DNA from: Microlunatus sagamiharensis
GTDB lineage: Bacteria > Actinomycetota > Actinomycetes > Propionibacteriales > Propionibacteriaceae
Direction of reading: 5' to 3'
Assembly: GCF_900105785.1 (NCBI RefSeq)
Contig: NZ_LT629799.1
Coordinates: forward strand, 4,154,001-4,218,000
Length of the DNA: 64,000 nucleotides
Shown here: positions 12,090-19,922 of the stretch, in pieces
Layout: each line of letters starts with the position of its first letter
Numbering within the stretch: the stretch's first letter is position 1
Notes under the pieces: generated by a model
The model's input: only the letters and a program-made list of their open reading frames with translations
What the model was told of the DNA's origin: nothing
The model's database searches: none
Program-made: the position numbers and the translations under genes

Positions 12090-14945
12090 GTGGCCAAGGC
12101 TGCAGCAGGTCGGCCGAAGACCGGCGGAGGCGGGCGGAGCCTCGTCATCGTCGAGTCGCCGACCAAGGTCGCGAGCATCGCGAGCTACCTCGGCGACGGC
12201 TACATCGTCGAGTCCAGCCGCGGTCACGTGCGCGACCTGCCCACCGGTGCCGCCGAGGTCCCCGCCAAGTACAAGGGTGAGAAGTGGGCCCGCACCGGCG
12301 TCGACGTCGAGCACGACTTCGAGCCGCTCTACGTGGTCAACCCCGACAAGAAGTCGACGATGCGCTCCCTCAAGGACGCGCTGGCCCAGGTCGACCAGCT
12401 CCTGCTGGCGACCGACGACGACCGCGAGGGCGAGGCCATCGCCTGGCACCTGCTGCAGGAGCTCAAGCCCAAGGTCCCGGCCCGGCGGATGGTGTTCCGC
12501 GAGATCACCCCCAAGGCCATCGCCGAGGCCGTCGCCAACCCGCGCGACCTCGACACCGACCTGGTGGACGCGCAGGAGACCCGTCGGATCCTCGACCGCC
12601 TCTACGGCTACGAGGTCTCCCCGGTGCTGTGGAAGAAGGTCATGCCCCGGCTCTCGGCCGGGCGCGTGCAGTCGGTCGCCACCCGCCTCGTGGTCGAGCG
12701 CGAGCGCGAGCGGATCGCCTTCCGCACCGCCTCCTACTGGGACCTCGACGCCGTGCTCGACGCCGGTGCCGAGGCCGAGCCCCCGCACTTCCCCGCCCGC
12801 CTGACGCGGGTCGGTGAGCGCCGCGTCGCGCAGGGCCGCGACTTCGACAGCCACGGCCAGCTCGTGAACCGGCCGAACGAGGTGCTGGTGCACCTCGACG
12901 AGGCCCAGACCCGGGCGCTCGCGGCCTCGCTGGAGACCGCGCCGTTCCGGGTGGCCGGGGTCGACTCCAAGCCCTACACGCGCAAGCCGTACGCGCCCTT
13001 CCGCACGACGACGCTGCAGCAGGAGGCCGGCCGCAAGCTCGGCTTCACCGCGCAGCGCACGATGTCGGTCGCGCAGGACCTCTACGAGGGCGGCTTCATC
13101 ACCTACATGCGTACGGACTCCTCCGTGCTGTCCGACACGGCGATCAACGCGGCACGGGCGCAGGTGACGCAGCTGTTCGGCAGCGACTACCTGCCGAGCG
13201 CCCCGCGCGTCTACGCCTCCAAGGTCAAGAACGCCCAGGAGGCGCACGAGGCGGTCCGCCCGGCGGGCGACACCTTCCGCACCCCGGCGCAGACCGGCCT
13301 GCGCGGCGACCAGTTCCGTCTCTACGAGCTGATCTGGATGCGCACCATCGCCTCGCAGATGAAGGACGCCGAGGGCTTCTCCACCACCGTCCGCATCGAG
13401 GCGACCCCGGCCGACGGCGAGCGCTGCACCTTCGTGGCGTCGGGCCGCACGATCACCTTCCACGGCTTCCTCAAGGCCTACGTCGAGTCCACCGACGAGC
13501 CCGGCGGCAGCGGCGACGACGCGCAGGCGCGCCTGCCGCAGCTGCGCGAGGACCAGGAGCTGCGCGCGGAGTCGCTGACCCCTGCCGGCCACGAGACCCG
13601 GCCGCCGGCCCGCTACACCGAACCGTCGCTGGTCGCGAAGCTCGAGGAGCTCGAGATCGGGCGTCCCTCGACGTACGCCTCGATCATCCGCACGATCACC
13701 AGCCGCGACTACGTGTTCAAGAAGGGCTCGGCGCTCGTCCCGACGTGGCTGGCGTTCGCGGTCACGCGGCTGCTGGAGGAGCACTTCCCGGGGCTGGTGG
13801 ACTACAAGTTCACCGCGCAGATGGAGGACACCCTCGACGAGATCGCGAGCGGCAACGCCGAGCGCGTCGCGGTGCTCACCGACTTCTACTTCGGCGCCGG
13901 CGGCAAGCCCGCGCCGGTCGACGCGAGCGGACCGGACGCACCAGCCGCGCCCGCCGCGCCGGTCGAGGTGCCCAGCGGCCACGAGGGCCTGCAGCGCCTC
14001 GTCTCCGAGCTGGGGGACATCGACGCCCGACGGCTGTCGACCTTCCCGATCGGCGACCTCGGCTCCGACGTCGTCGTCCGGGTCGGGCGCTACGGCACCT
14101 ACGTCGAGGACTCCGAGGGCCGCCGCGCCAACGTCGACGACGAGCTGCCGCCCGACGAGCTCACCCTCGAGCTGGCGACCGAGCTGCTCAGCAAGCCGAT
14201 GGGCGAGGAGCGCGAGCTCGGCACCGACCCCGAGACCCACCGCACGGTGGTGGCCAAGCAGGGCCGCTTCGGGCCGTACGTGACCGAGGTCCTCGAGGAG
14301 GGCGCGCCCAAGAACGCGAAGCCGCGCACCGGCTCGCTGTTCGCCTCGATGAGCGTCGACACCGTGACCCTCGAGGACGCGCTCAAGCTCATGAGCCTGC
14401 CGCGCGTGGTCGGCGTGGGTGCCGACGGCGAGGAGATCACCGCGCAGAACGGCCGCTACGGCCCGTACCTGAAGAAGGGCACGGACTCGCGCTCGCTGAC
14501 CAGCGAGGACGAGATCTTCGACATCACCCTCGAGCAGGCCGAGGCGATCTACGCCCAGCCCAAGCAGCGCGGGCGGGCCGCGGCCAAGCCGCCGCTGGCC
14601 GAGCTGGGCCCCGACCCGGTGTCGGGCAGGCCGATGGTGGTCAAGGACGGGCGCTTCGGCGCGTACGTCACCGACGGCGAGGTCAACGCGACCCTGCGCC
14701 GCGACGACGAGGTGGCGACGCTGACCGCGGAGCGCGCGGCCGAGCTGCTCGCGGAGAAGCGGGCCAAGGGTCCGGCGCCGAAGAAGACCACGCGTCGGGC
14801 GCCGGCGAAGAAGACCGCGACCAAGTCGGCGGCCAAGACCACGACGGCCAAGAAGGCCGCCGCCAAGAAGGCGCCGGCCGCGAAGTCCGCTGCCGCCAAG
14901 ACGGCGGCCAAGCCCCGCGCGGCGGCGTCCTCCTCGCCCTCCTGA
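12090..14945 (+). CDS. topA: DNA topoisomerase I
   Basis: This is a 951-residue type IA topoisomerase that relaxes negative supercoils. The Toprim domain begins at LVIVESPTK, and its metal motif DDDREGEAIAWH is at residues 109-120. The active-site tyrosine is Y339 in FITYMRTDS. The C-terminal half holds repeated actinobacterial topoisomerase I domains (several GRYG/GRFGPYV units). The last ~60 residues are a Lys/Ala-rich tail, known in actinobacteria to promote strand passage. GTG 12090 is preferred over ATG 12078 because GGAGGA sits 4-5 nt before it. It overlaps the next gene by one base (TGATG). Confidence 0.96.
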   Translation: MAKAAAGRPKTGGGGRSLVIVESPTKVASIASYLGDGYIVESSRGHVRDLPTGAAEVPAKYKGEKWARTGVDVEHDFEPLYVVNPDKKSTMRSLKDALAQVDQLLLATDDDREGEAIAWHLLQELKPKVPARRMVFREITPKAIAEAVANPRDLDTDLVDAQETRRILDRLYGYEVSPVLWKKVMPRLSAGRVQSVATRLVVERERERIAFRTASYWDLDAVLDAGAEAEPPHFPARLTRVGERRVAQGRDFDSHGQLVNRPNEVLVHLDEAQTRALAASLETAPFRVAGVDSKPYTRKPYAPFRTTTLQQEAGRKLGFTAQRTMSVAQDLYEGGFITYMRTDSSVLSDTAINAARAQVTQLFGSDYLPSAPRVYASKVKNAQEAHEAVRPAGDTFRTPAQTGLRGDQFRLYELIWMRTIASQMKDAEGFSTTVRIEATPADGERCTFVASGRTITFHGFLKAYVESTDEPGGSGDDAQARLPQLREDQELRAESLTPAGHETRPPARYTEPSLVAKLEELEIGRPSTYASIIRTITSRDYVFKKGSALVPTWLAFAVTRLLEEHFPGLVDYKFTAQMEDTLDEIASGNAERVAVLTDFYFGAGGKPAPVDASGPDAPAAPAAPVEVPSGHEGLQRLVSELGDIDARRLSTFPIGDLGSDVVVRVGRYGTYVEDSEGRRANVDDELPPDELTLELATELLSKPMGEERELGTDPETHRTVVAKQGRFGPYVTEVLEEGAPKNAKPRTGSLFASMSVDTVTLEDALKLMSLPRVVGVGADGEEITAQNGRYGPYLKKGTDSRSLTSEDEIFDITLEQAEAIYAQPKQRGRAAAKPPLAELGPDPVSGRPMVVKDGRFGAYVTDGEVNATLRRDDEVATLTAERAAELLAEKRAKGPAPKKTTRRAPAKKTATKSAAKTTTAKKAAAKKAPAAKSAAAKTAAKPRAAASSSPS

Positions 14946-16465
14946 TGGCGAAGGGCTCCACGAGGAAGGGCGGTCCCGGCACGGCCGGGCCTCTCAAGGC
15001 GGGCAAGCTGGGTAAGGCGGGCAAGGCCGGCAAAGTGGGCAAGGCCCGCACGCCGGGCGGCCCGGAGGTACGTCTCCTCGTCGAGGACACGCCGGAACCG
15101 TCACGGCCCGGACGCCCTCCGGGCCAACGGCTCTACGACGTGCCCTTCAGCTCGCCGGAGCCGCGGCTGGTCAACCGCGAGGTCGGGCTGCACAACGTCG
15201 TCGCACGGGCGGGGCACAACGCCGCGTACACGATCGACGTCACCCTCCTCGACGCGCCCGACCACCGCCTCAGCCGCTCCGGCGTGCTGCTGGCGCACCG
15301 GGTGCTGGACGGGCGGGGGGAGTGGTTCCTCACCGCGCCCGACTGGCGGCCGCTGCTGCCGAAGGACCACGTCGAGCCGATGGGCGACGCCGACCTGCCC
15401 GAGGAGCTGACCTCGCTCATCCGGCCGCTGCGGCGCCGGGCGACGCTCGGCCCGGTCGCGGCGCTGAACTGCGACCGCCGCGAGTTCGCGCTGCGCGACG
15501 ACGCCGGCTCGACCCTCGCCCTGCTCCGCGACGACAAGGTGACGGTGCGCCGCGGCGGCCTCACCACCGCCCGCTACCGCGAGGTCACCGTGACGCCGGT
15601 CGGGCCCGGGCTCACCGCCGACCAGCGCGCCTCGGTCGAGCGGGCCTTCCGCCTCGTCGGCGCCAACCGCGTCCCGCGCTTCCCGCGCCTCGTCACCCGG
15701 CTCGGCGCGCCGGCGACCGGACCGTCCGACATCCCCGACGAGCAGGCGCTCGACCCGGCGATGCCCTTCCGCGCCTTCGTCGCGGCCGCGGTGGGCAACC
15801 GGCTGCGCGAGATCGTGCGCTGCGACCTGGCCCTGCGCCACGGCGACGACGACGCCCTCGTCCGCCTGACGGCGGAGGCGGCGGCGCTGCGCCGAGAGCT
15901 CGCCGGTCTGGCGCCGGCCCTCGAGGGGCCCTGGGAGGAGGACCTGCGCGACGACCTCGACTGGCTCGTGGCGGCCGGGGTCAGCCCGGGCGTGCTGCGG
16001 TCCGAGCGCTACCTCTCCGTGCTCGAGCGGCTCGTCTCGGCCGCCCGCTCGCCCCAGCTGGTCGTCGACGGCGGCGAGCCGACGGCCGCGCTGCTGGCCG
16101 GGCTGCTGCAGGCGGAGACGAAGCGTCTGCGCGAGGTCGCCGACCCGCTGCGCACCGACTCCGGCGACGCCGCCTGGCGCCAGGTCGGCGGCGTGGTCGC
16201 CCGCCTGCGCGGGCTCGCCACCGCCTCGTCGGTCGTGCTGCCGGAGGAGTCGGCCGCCGCGCTCGCGCTGCTCCGCAAGCCCGCGCGGCTGCTCGAGGCC
16301 GTCCGCCTGGGCGACGTGCCCGCGCCGCCCGCCGTCGCCGGGCTCTCCCCGGCCGACGCCTTCGCCGCGGGCCGCGAGTACGAGCGCACCCGGCAGCGCG
16401 ACCGCCGGGCGCGCCAGGACTTCGTCGAGCGCTGGGCGAAGACGGTCCGGAGGCGGAGCGCGTGA
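14945..16465 (+). CDS. Degenerate CYTH-CHAD domain protein
   Basis: This 506-residue protein starts with a Lys/Gly-rich low-complexity tail (KAG/KVG repeats, residues 18-35). The region ~65-245 resembles a CYTH (triphosphate tunnel) domain: LLDAPDHRLSRSGVLLAHRV matches the D-T-PD-RL--G--LR strand pair, and LGPVAALNCDRREFALRDDAGSTLALLRDDKV matches its middle strands. The remainder is a helical CHAD-like domain ending in a basic stretch. The N-terminal ExExK catalytic motif of CYTH phosphatases is not visible, so activity may be lost. It starts within the topA stop and overlaps tmk, so it is expressed with DNA replication genes. CHAD domains are known to bind polyphosphate; that role here is inference. 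Confidence 0.62.
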   Translation: MAKGSTRKGGPGTAGPLKAGKLGKAGKAGKVGKARTPGGPEVRLLVEDTPEPSRPGRPPGQRLYDVPFSSPEPRLVNREVGLHNVVARAGHNAAYTIDVTLLDAPDHRLSRSGVLLAHRVLDGRGEWFLTAPDWRPLLPKDHVEPMGDADLPEELTSLIRPLRRRATLGPVAALNCDRREFALRDDAGSTLALLRDDKVTVRRGGLTTARYREVTVTPVGPGLTADQRASVERAFRLVGANRVPRFPRLVTRLGAPATGPSDIPDEQALDPAMPFRAFVAAAVGNRLREIVRCDLALRHGDDDALVRLTAEAAALRRELAGLAPALEGPWEEDLRDDLDWLVAAGVSPGVLRSERYLSVLERLVSAARSPQLVVDGGEPTAALLAGLLQAETKRLREVADPLRTDSGDAAWRQVGGVVARLRGLATASSVVLPEESAAALALLRKPARLLEAVRLGDVPAPPAVAGLSPADAFAAGREYERTRQRDRRARQDFVERWAKTVRRRSA

Positions 16466-17112
16466 GCGGCGCGGGCACCCGGGGCGCGTTCGTCGTCTTC
16501 GAGGGCGGCGACGGGGTCGGCAAGTCGACCCAGGTCGAGCTGCTCGTGCGCCGCCTCGAGGGCGCGGGCCACGAGGTCGTCCGGACGCTGGAGCCGGGCG
16601 GGACGCGCCTCGGCGCGGTGCTGCGCGGACTGCTCCTGCACGGCGACGGGGGCGAGGTGGGTCCGCGGACCGAGGCCCTGCTGTACGCGGCCGACAAGGC
16701 CGAGCACCTCCACCAGGTCGTCTCGCCCGCGCTGGAGCGCGGCGCCGTCGTCGTCTGCGACCGCTACGTCGACTCGATGGTCGCCTACCAGGGCGCGGGG
16801 CGCGTCCTCGACGGCGACGAGGTCGAGCGGGTGGCGCGCTGGGCGACCGGTGACCTGCGTCCCGACCTCACCGTGCTGCTCGACCTCGACCCGGAGGCCG
16901 GCCTCGAGACGTTGACCGACCCCGACCGGCTGGAGTCGGCCGGGCTGGACTTCCACCGCCGCGCCCGCGCCTCCTTCCTGGCCCTCGCCGGGCGTGACCC
17001 GGGCCGCTACCTCGTGCTGCCCGCCCGCCGGTCCCGCGACGAGCTGGCCGAGGCCGTCGGCGTACGCGTGGAGCGGCTCCTGTCGGAGGGCCCTGCCAAG
17101 GTGTCCTCGTGA
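16462..17112 (+). CDS. tmk: Thymidylate kinase
   Basis: This 216-residue cytosolic kinase converts dTMP to dTDP with ATP, an essential step in dTTP synthesis. The P-loop FEGGDGVGKST occupies residues 13-23. The DRY-type substrate motif is present (CDRYVDSMVAYQG), as is the DLTVLLDLDPEAGL segment of the core strand. The GTG start overlaps the preceding stop (GTGA) and GGAGGCGGAG lies upstream. The stop overlaps holB, so tmk and holB are translationally coupled, an order also found in Bacillus and many actinobacteria. Length and motifs are normal. Confidence 0.95.
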   Translation: MSGAGTRGAFVVFEGGDGVGKSTQVELLVRRLEGAGHEVVRTLEPGGTRLGAVLRGLLLHGDGGEVGPRTEALLYAADKAEHLHQVVSPALERGAVVVCDRYVDSMVAYQGAGRVLDGDEVERVARWATGDLRPDLTVLLDLDPEAGLETLTDPDRLESAGLDFHRRARASFLALAGRDPGRYLVLPARRSRDELAEAVGVRVERLLSEGPAKVSS

Positions 17113-18281
17113 GCACCGCCGCCCCCGAGAAGACCGTGTGGGACGACCTCGTGGGGCAGGACGCCGCGGTCGAGGTGCTGCGCCGTGCGGCGCGCGGCGA
17201 GGACCACGCCATGACCCACGCCTGGCTCGTGGTCGGGCCGCCGGGGTCGGGCCGGTCGAACGCCGCGCGCGCCTTCGCCGCCGCGCTGCAGTGCGAGCGT
17301 CCCGGCGGCGTCGAGGCGGGCTGCGGGAGGTGCGGCGGGTGCCGTACGGCGCTGAGCGGCGCCCACCCTGACGTCACCCTCGTGCGCACCGAGCAGCTCT
17401 CCATCGGCGTCGACGAGGTCCGCGACCTCGTGCGCCGGGCCGCCATGAGCCCGACCCTGCGGCACCGGCAGGTGATCGTCGTCGAGGACGCGGACCGGGT
17501 CACCGAGCGCGGTGCCGACGCGCTGCTCAAGAGCGTGGAGGAGCCGGCCCCCGGGACGGTCTGGATCCTCTGCGCGCCGACGCCCGACGACGTCGTGATC
17601 ACCATCCGCTCCCGCTGCCGGCTGCTCTCGCTGGCCACGCCGACCACCGACGCGGTCGCCCGCCTGCTGGTGAGCCGCGACGGGGTGGAGCCCGCGCTGG
17701 CCGCCGAGGCGGCGCGGGCCGCGCAGGGCCACGTGGGGCGGGCCCGGGTGCTCGCCCGCGACGAGGGCGCGCGCGAACGGCGCCGCGAGATCTTGATGAT
17801 CCCCTTCGGCCTGACGAGCCTGTCGGCCTGCCTGACCGCCGCCGCCCGCCTGGTCGAGATGTGCTCCGCGGAGTCCACGGCGGCGACGGAGACGGTCGAC
17901 GCCCGCGAGCGTGCGGCGCTGGAGGAGGCGCTGGGCTTCGGGACGCGGGGCGCCCGGCCCCGCCAGGCGGCGGCCGCGGTCAAGGAGCTCGACGAGCAGC
18001 AGCGGGCCAGGGCCAAGCGCTTCCAGCGTGACGCCATCGACCGGGCGCTGACCGAGCTCACCACCTTCTACCGCGACCTGCTCAGCCTGCAGACGCGCTC
18101 GGGGGCGGCCCTGGTCAACGAGGCGCTGGCCACCCGGCTCACCAAGCTGGCGCAGCGCTCCACCCCGGAGGCCACGCTGCGCCGCATCGACGCCCTGCTC
18201 GCGTGCCGCACCGCGCTCGAGGGCAACGTCGCGCCGCTCCTGGCGCTGGAGTCGACGATGATCGCGCTCGTCGAGCCCTGA
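17109..18281 (+). CDS. holB: DNA polymerase III delta' subunit
   Basis: This 390-residue clamp-loader subunit works with the tau/gamma and delta subunits to load the sliding clamp. The AAA+ core shows VVGPPGSGRS (residues 42-50), where the P-loop lysine is arginine, consistent with delta' being a non-hydrolysing subunit. Zinc-module cysteines are at C62, C72, C75 and C78. SSx/sensor regions read as DADRVTERGADALLKSVEEP. GTG start 17109 overlaps tmk. The next gene is the BLUF photoreceptor, which interrupts the otherwise familiar tmk-holB-ricT order. Confidence 0.94.
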   Translation: MSTAAPEKTVWDDLVGQDAAVEVLRRAARGEDHAMTHAWLVVGPPGSGRSNAARAFAAALQCERPGGVEAGCGRCGGCRTALSGAHPDVTLVRTEQLSIGVDEVRDLVRRAAMSPTLRHRQVIVVEDADRVTERGADALLKSVEEPAPGTVWILCAPTPDDVVITIRSRCRLLSLATPTTDAVARLLVSRDGVEPALAAEAARAAQGHVGRARVLARDEGARERRREILMIPFGLTSLSACLTAAARLVEMCSAESTAATETVDARERAALEEALGFGTRGARPRQAAAAVKELDEQQRARAKRFQRDAIDRALTELTTFYRDLLSLQTRSGAALVNEALATRLTKLAQRSTPEATLRRIDALLACRTALEGNVAPLLALESTMIALVEP

Positions 18282-18325
18282 GCACCGGGACGCTCCAGGG
18301 GCTCCCCGCGCAGGGTCGGAACGTC

Positions 18326-18331
18326 TACTGT
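18326..18331 (+). promoter_or_regulatory. -10 element for a leaderless BLUF transcript
   Basis: TACTGT ends 7 nt before GTG 18339. This spacing recurs before several other starts in the window and suggests transcription begins at or next to the start codon. It supports GTG 18339 over the in-frame GTG 18330, which overlaps the hexamer. Confidence 0.5.
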
Positions 18332-18338
18332 GCTGCCC

Positions 18339-18752
18339 GTGCTCTTCTCGTTGGTGTACACGAGCCGGGCCGTCGCGCCGATGACGCGTGACGACCTCAG
18401 GGGACTGCTGCACCAGGCCCGGACCCACAACACGTCGGCACGCCTGACCGGCATCCTGCTGTACCGCAACCAGACCTTCGTGCAGCTGCTCGAGGGCCAG
18501 CGCAACCGCGTGGAGCCGCTGTACGAGGCGATCCGGCGCGACCCCCGCCACCACGAGGTGACCACGGTCTCCACCCACGAGCAGCTGGACCGGCAGTTCC
18601 CCGACTGGAGCATGGCCTTCGACAACCTCGACGAGGAACCGGTGGGCCTCCCGGGGTACAGCGACCTGCTCCAGGCGCCGCGGAGCAGCCCGTCGAGCGC
18701 CGAGGCCGGCCTCGTGCGTGAGCTCCTCGAGCTCTTCGACCGCGGACGCTGA
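18339..18752 (+). CDS. BLUF-domain blue-light photoreceptor
   Basis: This 137-residue protein is essentially a single BLUF (FAD-binding blue-light sensing) domain. All photocycle residues are present: Tyr7 (LVYTSRA), Asn31 (HNTSARLTG), Gln49 (FVQLLEG), Trp90 and Met92 (DWSMAF). Their spacing is exactly that of AppA Y21, N45, Q63, W104 and M106. After the domain there is only a ~35-residue tail with a helical end (AGLVRELLELFDRGR), so no enzymatic output domain; it presumably signals by protein interaction, as in short BLUF proteins. It sits between holB and ricT with its own promoter signal. Light sensing is well supported; partner and output are unknown. Confidence 0.92.
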   Translation: MLFSLVYTSRAVAPMTRDDLRGLLHQARTHNTSARLTGILLYRNQTFVQLLEGQRNRVEPLYEAIRRDPRHHEVTTVSTHEQLDRQFPDWSMAFDNLDEEPVGLPGYSDLLQAPRSSPSSAEAGLVRELLELFDRGR

Positions 18753-19034
18753 CCCTGGTCCCGCGAGGCGCTCGCGCAACTCCGAGGTTCGGCCGAGCCG
18801 GAGCCTCTCAGACCTGTGGTGTGACTGAGTTCACCGCCCCGAAACGCGACGGAGGCAGCGAACCGGCTCCCTGCTGCAAGCGCTTGCGGCACGATGGGCG
18901 CAGACGTTTCTGGCGCGGGTGGGCACCTGCCCCCCAGTTCGCCCACCCGAGGAAGCCCGGCAGACCCGCATCTGCCGGGCTTCCGTGCACGTGGGACGTG
19001 CCCGGCCTTCGCCCGCCCTCGTACGCTGGCGCCC
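18753..19034. promoter_or_regulatory. Signal-rich leader region upstream of ricT
   Basis: This 282-bp gap holds several separate signals. There is a CRP-like site TGTGA-CTGAGT-TCACC at 18820-18835. A perfect 12-bp palindrome GCAAGCGCTTGC at 18876-18887 is of LacI-family operator type. A GGGTGGGC/GCCCACCC inverted repeat follows, then a perfect 14-bp stem with a 6-nt loop at 18951-18984 (GGAAGCCCGGCAGA pairing with TCTGCCGGGCTTCC). TACGCT at 19022-19027, 7 nt before the ricT ATG, is a leaderless -10. If so, the 14-bp hairpin is a terminator of the upstream transcript rather than part of the ricT leader. Confidence 0.5.
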
Positions 19035-19922
19035 ATGTCCCGCGTGATGGCGGTGTCGTTCGAGCGCTACGGACGCCTGCACTACCTCGACCCCGGCGAG
19101 CAGAGCTATGCCGTCGGGGACCGCGTGCTGGTGCCCACCGAGTCCGGCCCCGAGGTCGCGGAGTGCGTGTGGGCGCCGGAGTGGGTCGACCCGGGCGACG
19201 CGCGCGGGTTCGTCGGCCTGCCGGTCTGCGCGGGCCTGGCCGCCGACGCCGACCTGGAGCGCGACGCGGAGCACCGCCGCCGCCGCGCCGAGGCCAAGCT
19301 GGTCGCCCGGCGGCTGATCAAGCGTCACGGGCTGGCGATGAAGATCGTCGGCATCGACTACCTCGACCCCGCGACGGCGCCCGAGCAGCTCGTGGTCGTC
19401 TACTTCACCGCACCGCACCGCGTCGACTTCCGCAACCTGGTCGGCGAGCTCGCGCGCAGCCTCGACTCCCGCGTCGACCTGCGCCAGGTCGGGTCGCGCG
19501 ACGCCGCCCGGCTGACGGGCGGCATCGGCAGCTGCGGGCGGGACCTGTGCTGCGCGACGTTCCTCAAGGACTTCGAGCCGGTGACCCTGCGGATGGCCAA
19601 GGCGCAGGACCTGCCGCCGAACCCGCTCAAGATCTCCGGGGCCTGCGGTCGCCTGCTCTGCTGCCTCAAGTACGAGCACCCCCTCTACGCCGACTTCGCG
19701 CGCGACGTCCCGGGCGTGGGCTCCCGCGTCGAGGTCGACGGGGAGGAGGGCACCGTCGTCGCCCACCAGGTGCCCGCCGACGCGGTCCTCGTACGGATGA
19801 AGGACAGCGGGGCGGTGAGCAGGTGCAGCGCGGCGAGCGTCTGCGGCTCGCGCCAGGCGTACGAGGGCCGCGGCTCCGGCCGGTCGAAGGGCGCACGCCG
19901 CACGGGCGACCCGGGCGCGTGA
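19035..19922 (+). CDS. ricT: RicT/YaaT-like PSP1-domain protein
   Basis: This is a 295-residue PSP1 (YaaT/RicT) family protein. The conserved cysteine motifs are intact: SCGRDLCC (C167, C172, C173) and ACGRLLCC (C204, C209, C210). In Bacillus, RicT is a subunit of the iron-sulfur-containing RicAFT complex that affects RNA processing and development. Actinobacteria have the protein but usually lack obvious partners, so its role here is less clear. ATG 19035 has no ribosome-binding site but is preceded by TACGCT at 7 nt, fitting a leaderless message. It overlaps the next gene by 4 nt. Its place after holB matches Bacillus. Confidence 0.88.
   Translation: MSRVMAVSFERYGRLHYLDPGEQSYAVGDRVLVPTESGPEVAECVWAPEWVDPGDARGFVGLPVCAGLAADADLERDAEHRRRRAEAKLVARRLIKRHGLAMKIVGIDYLDPATAPEQLVVVYFTAPHRVDFRNLVGELARSLDSRVDLRQVGSRDAARLTGGIGSCGRDLCCATFLKDFEPVTLRMAKAQDLPPNPLKISGACGRLLCCLKYEHPLYADFARDVPGVGSRVEVDGEEGTVVAHQVPADAVLVRMKDSGAVSRCSAASVCGSRQAYEGRGSGRSKGARRTGDPGA

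Follow-up and report, generated by a model that had tools for sequence, protein, structure and literature searches.

Short BLUF photoreceptors signal by binding separate proteins, as described for BlsA with Fur in the dark and for PixD with PixE, and BlsA of Acinetobacter baumannii, which binds Fur in the dark, does so much less under blue light (available part of PMC5955987). The signal of the BLUF domain is carried by strand 5 and the helices that follow it, and 64% of the BLUF proteins surveyed were found to be short, with partners known in few cases (PMC4844311, in the portion accessible). RicT of Bacillus subtilis stably associates with RNase Y only when RicA and RicF are present (excerpt of PMC10470536).

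The 64,000 nucleotides of Microlunatus sagamiharensis DNA analysed here (the window) are part of a one-contig 4.4-Mb genome and hold, on the plus strand at 18339-18752, an open reading frame of 137 amino acids with a GTG start, for which a working blue-light sensor and a connection of light with the neighbouring ricT or with replication genes had been predicted. The gene very probably encodes a short sensor of the PixD/BlrB type, one of five paralogues, which would act on a separate partner and for which the place between holB and ricT would be incidental. As a further short BLUF it joins a large known class with partners that are mostly not known, and the attractive link to RicT or replication fails on comparison with relatives. 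In a survey of the order, no genome listed outside the clade of the window has as many BLUF genes, and the interval contains a double hairpin, strongly conserved and undescribed so far, a candidate small RNA or terminator. The expansion of BLUF genes in the clade and the double hairpin upstream of ricT are more unusual than the BLUF gene itself. The features are as follows.

16462-17112, tmk, upstream of holB (Pfam scan)
17109-18281, plus strand, holB, DNA polymerase III delta-prime subunit, a neighbour outside the BLUF system (Pfam scan)
18326-18331, plus strand, TACTGT, -10-like box, putative leaderless-type promoter of the BLUF gene (from sequence)
18339-18752, plus strand, short stand-alone BLUF photoreceptor gene, 137 amino acids, GTG start (Pfam, alignment, AF2 model, Foldseek)
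Within the BLUF protein, residues 2-93 BLUF domain, 113-123 low-confidence linker, 120-134 C-terminal helix
18876-18891, no strand assigned, GCAAGCGCTTGCGGCA, which contains the palindrome GCAAGCGCTTGC, between the BLUF gene and the double hairpin
18910-18985, plus strand (transcript strand uncertain), 76-nt double hairpin upstream of ricT (folding, alignment, genome search)
19022-19027, plus strand, TACGCT, -10-like box, putative promoter of ricT
19035-19922, plus strand, ricT, PSP1-domain protein, a neighbour outside the BLUF system (Pfam scan; ATG at 19035)

The BLUF protein

The profile PF04940 matches residues 2-93 of the product over positions 1-92 of its 92 with 104.9 bits (E 2.5e-30), the curated cut-off being 25 bits, and a Pfam scan of the 137-residue protein at E 0.001 found no domain besides PF04940, in line with the absence of an output domain that had been claimed. 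The five photocycle residues Y7, N31, Q49, W90 and M92 are all there, and their spacings of 24, 18, 41 and 2 are, as had been noticed in the original prediction, the same as those of AppA, in which we take the counterparts to be Tyr21, Asn45, Gln63, Trp104 and Met106. When the window's protein was aligned with 19 others of the genus and one from another genus of the family (21 BLUF proteins altogether), Y7, N31, Q49 and W90 were invariant and M92 was at least 90% conserved. An in-frame GTG at 18330 was considered as the start and rejected, the M. flavus orthologue sharing the GTG at 18339 instead.

The AF2 model has the BLUF fold at moderate confidence (mean pLDDT 77), followed by helices 107-112 and 120-134 at low confidence, the C-terminal 37 residues falling into blocks that average pLDDT 46-53. 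Foldseek aligned the whole chain with TePixD (8i98, 1x0p; E 5.2e-13, TM ~0.8 (0.81)) and with BlrB (2byc; TM 0.83, the highest among the 50 matches listed). Fold and layout thus point to the short BLUF type, with which the predicted protein agrees in having no output domain and only C-terminal helices after the BLUF domain, as in PixD, BlrB and BlsA. Judged by sequence and model, the product is most likely an FAD-binding blue-light switch.

As short BLUFs elsewhere bind separate proteins, the same is assumed here. The protein would bind FAD, and blue light would rearrange the hydrogen bonds among Tyr7, Gln49 and the flavin; strand 5 would then relay the change to the helices at the C-terminus, and these would bind or release a separate partner protein, probably not one encoded next door.

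Promoter boxes of the BLUF and ricT genes

The first base of TACTGT lies 13 nt before the GTG at 18339, and TACTCT occupies the same place in M. flavus, which fits the leaderless promoter that had been proposed for the BLUF gene. Similarly, the ricT ATG has TACGCT starting 13 nt ahead of it, and in 18 aligned Microlunatus ricT loci the first T, the A and the final T of this box are invariant. A TANNNT hexamer starting at -11 to -13 is found in 16 of the 21 BLUF genes versus 26 of the 3342 ATG/GTG codons of the same loci, an excess to be taken as a strong pattern and not as an exact probability, since the background takes in non-starts and the orthologues are not independent. Five of the 21 have no TANNNT at the counted position; one BLUF gene (L017) would become the 17th carrier if its start were moved one codon upstream, and another (L044) has a box at -14 from its ATG, outside the counted range. 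The other Microlunatus BLUF genes mostly have a GTG start with TANNNT at -12/-13. A scan of 18000-19300 for generic sigma-70 and terminator consensus sequences, which left other promoter types outside, gave no match.

The TANNNT boxes suggest that the BLUF and ricT genes have separate promoters of their own, which would argue against co-transcription of the cluster. Taken with the protein model, they support a complete stand-alone BLUF sensor with its own putative promoter box, ordinary in kind and probably working.

The holB-ricT interval in relatives

Pfam scan and coordinates agree with the described position of the BLUF gene between holB and ricT in a tmk-holB-ricT series. Among 20 Microlunatus genomes, in 18 of which ricT was detected, the sequence upstream of ricT holds the BLUF gene in two (the window and M. 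flavus), an Rpf-like gene in ten (L029-L034, L037, L040, L042, L043), just a gap to holB in three (320, 273 and 394 nt; small open reading frames unscreened) and no Rpf-like gene, BLUF or HolB within 1.5 kb in two, while at the last locus the contig ends 239 nt upstream of ricT. The one Rpf-like gene scanned in Pfam carries a PF06737 transglycosylase domain and LysM; HolB lies upstream of the Rpf-like gene in five of the ten loci, the other five ending before that point. The Rpf-like gene is absent upstream of ricT in the window, in M. flavus and in the next genome by RicT identity (G001, 82%), in which holB and ricT stand 320 nt apart with no BLUF gene between them. The holB-ricT interval is variable in Microlunatus, and the BLUF gene may have entered it in the common ancestor with M. 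flavus, its position there being incidental.

A wider comparison gave the same picture. A BLUF match was obtained in 53 of the 391 genomes of the order, for part of which neighbourhood loci were examined, and among 124 BLUF loci (the window's excluded and own paralogues included, with flanks of 1.5-4 kb, some places represented twice, and the loci on named contigs being the best 80 of 508 confirmed) HolB and RicT accompany BLUF in just two, L007 and L069, which are both the M. flavus locus. A conserved holB-BLUF-ricT cluster across relatives was therefore not found; the survey of relatives suggested in the original prediction turned out mostly against conservation, with retention in M. flavus as the part that stands. 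The open-licence literature matches listed for BLUF with neighbours and for BLUF in Actinobacteria or Microlunatus include no report of the holB-BLUF-ricT order. As the gene has its own putative promoter box, and as this placement was found in one other species alone, the neighbourhood looks accidental rather than functional, so that accidental adjacency, which had been offered as a second reading, becomes the better one. The order has outlasted the divergence from M. flavus; two species are too few genomes to argue against a recent function tied to the place.

Selection, paralogues and phylogeny

The dN/dS ratio against M. flavus (Nei-Gojobori) is 0.35 for the BLUF gene, 0.08 for HolB, 0.13 for RicT, 0.19 for Tmk, 0.11 for TopA, 0.28 for an open reading frame that is presumably alpha/beta hydrolase-like and 0.26 for the one at 14945-16465. 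With 69% identity to M. flavus versus 93% for HolB, BLUF is the fastest-evolving among the seven genes compared. A ratio of 0.35 indicates that the gene is kept, and by these ratios it is under purifying selection, yet the loosest of the seven.

BLUF genes number five in the window's genome, seven in M. flavus and four in G001, and at most three in the others listed in the 391-genome survey, in which at most 10 candidates were scored per genome. Besides the window gene they are:

Near 675, 1855, 2248 and 3685 kb, own BLUF paralogues, 40-46% identical to the window BLUF
L150:4913-5326 (~3.686 Mb), the one of these four that stands head-to-head with recF (dnaN-gnd-BLUF-recF), also a short BLUF

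The five places are unrelated: holB/ricT, dnaN-gnd-BLUF-recF and three others, of which one has an ABC permease and an FGGY kinase before the BLUF gene and an aldose epimerase after it, one is beside a 2-hydroxyacid dehydrogenase and one beside a MarR-type regulator. The recF place is kept in M. flavus with a BLUF 88% identical, as is the aldose-epimerase side of the sugar-related place, again with a BLUF 88% identical, the kinase not being seen there; in G001 both the kinase and the aldose-epimerase sides are kept. The place at the dehydrogenase is kept in M. flavus with a BLUF 72% identical. The 2248-kb paralogue (L152:4615-5262) has a C-terminal extension of ~120 amino acids with several cysteines (CRVCR ... 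C.TAKNALWALE), in which Pfam gave no match beyond the BLUF domain; similar extensions occur in M. flavus, G001 and G002.

A tree of 52 rows was computed from the window BLUF, 20 BLUFs of Microlunatus and of G046, 12 of the 24 loci of the order (L045-L068) and 19 of the 80 named loci. The window BLUF joins that of M. flavus (99/89) within a 20-row group of 19 members of the genus and one of the family (95/84), outside which one M. kandeliicorticis BLUF (L018) is placed; a tree that holds the 21 BLUFs of Microlunatus and G046 together was not rejected (p-AU 0.18). The topology fits a spread of BLUF within the genus, with L018 apart.

Alternative readings of the neighbourhood

A protein that binds RicT and makes RNA processing dependent on RicT and RNase Y responsive to light would be in keeping with the adjacency and common direction of the two genes in two species, with the way in which BlsA acts on Fur and PixD on PixE (PMC5955987, as far as available) and with the RNase Y of the genome (PF12072, 77.1 bits). 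Such a tie is nevertheless highly improbable: the two genes have separate leaderless-type promoter boxes, they are adjacent in only two of the 18 Microlunatus ricT loci, their dN/dS ratios differ (0.35 versus 0.13) and four BLUF paralogues sit elsewhere. The genome also gave no match to the RicA/RicF family (PF06133), for which the control was positive in three of 14 genomes including B. subtilis, and it is on RicA and RicF that RicT of that species depends (excerpt of PMC10470536). A Bacillus-type RicAFT complex, as defined by RicA and RicF, was accordingly not recovered, and the developmental role of RicT in Bacillus, which had been put forward as the reason for interest, is not simply transferable to a genome with RicT and RNase Y but without PF06133. 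The presence of RNase Y argues against dismissing RicT wholly, and RicT may act on RNA in the species of the window. RicT was detected in 42 of the 77 genomes of the family, a distribution that looks patchy, in part maybe through search sensitivity.

A role of the clade's BLUF proteins in DNA replication or repair would account for the two of five own BLUF genes that adjoin holB and recF, both places being kept in M. flavus. It is very unlikely, however, as the category was picked after the neighbours had been seen, the other three own genes adjoin a carbohydrate kinase and aldose epimerase, a 2-hydroxyacid dehydrogenase and a MarR-type regulator, and the promoter boxes of the BLUF genes are their own; matches to dnaN, gnd or recF among the 124 BLUF loci, many with flanks of 1.5 kb, come down to one locus, that of the window's genome and M. 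flavus. With a second BLUF gene head-to-head with recF, a link of light and replication is still a long shot, and there is hardly a chance that leaderless BLUFs of the M. flavus clade couple blue light to replication or repair, for example by pausing replication under damaging light. The connection to RicT or replication genes drawn in the original prediction is thus not supported, the neighbourhood having been found, among the loci compared, in the window and in M. flavus alone. Decay, or loss of signalling in a copy that drift has preserved, would explain why the gene evolves fastest of the seven: M. flavus shares 69% identity with it and 93% with HolB, and its BLUF genes at the recF and aldose-epimerase places are 88% identical to those of the window's genome; with the frame open, all photocycle residues in place, start and promoter box conserved and dN/dS at 0.35, this is unlikely, although less so than a tie to RicT or replication. 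The reading preferred here is still that of a working short sensor with a separate partner.

A conserved double hairpin upstream of ricT

The hairpin reported between the BLUF gene and ricT was recovered: the segment 18860-19000 folds strongly (-79.3 kcal/mol, z -4.06), and within it an 8-bp stem with a C6 loop is followed by a 14-bp stem. An alignment of the element from eight Microlunatus genomes has 62 invariant columns out of 77, those of the CCTGCCCCCCAG loop and of the second loop among them. At E 1e-5 the double hairpin is found in eight of the 391 genomes of the order, all of them Microlunatus, and in none of the other 383; the listing covered 19 Microlunatus genomes, and the remaining one (G019) gave no strong match at its ricT locus. 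Each of the eight has a single copy, in every case a short way upstream of ricT and irrespective of the presence there of the Rpf-like gene, the BLUF gene or neither (one of the eight loci is incomplete). Weak matches (18-26 bits, E 0.04-0.7) occur in four of ten other Microlunatus ricT loci, and a search of 296 genomes of the class for the first hairpin alone gave matches in two, each a Microlunatus. Rfam gave no match for 17900-19300 at E up to 1, and none for the hairpin in a search of the whole window.

None of the 25 base pairs varies on both sides, and with so little variation conservation of the structure is inseparable from plain conservation of the sequence. The ricT box lies downstream of the double hairpin, which is therefore probably outside the ricT mRNA; the element may be a terminator of whatever precedes it or a small RNA. 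Its loops are conserved like its stems, for which a plain terminator would have no need. Between the BLUF gene and the double hairpin, GCAAGCGCTTGCGGCA, which we take to resemble a LacI-type operator, has an exact match, among 20 Microlunatus genomes, in that of the window and in M. flavus alone, where it occupies the corresponding place.

Comparison with known short BLUF systems

BlsA is a short BLUF like that of the window and matches it in fold (TM 0.77), with lower structural and sequence similarity (25% identity); its partner Fur is known, whereas that of the window BLUF is putative. BlrB of Rhodobacter sphaeroides, from a different phylum, is 32% identical, and we know of no partner of BlrB. 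The PixD-PixE system differs in its partner: a search of the window's genome for PF14332, presumably the PATAN-type domain of PixE, gave no match, the control being positive in three of 14 genomes including Synechococcus elongatus, so that by PF14332 no such partner was found. In the sensor itself, close counterparts are the cyanobacterial TePixD (Tll0078) and SyPixD (Slr1694), which top the Foldseek and profile matches listed and which, at ~22-31% identity, are likewise stand-alone BLUF proteins with C-terminal helices.
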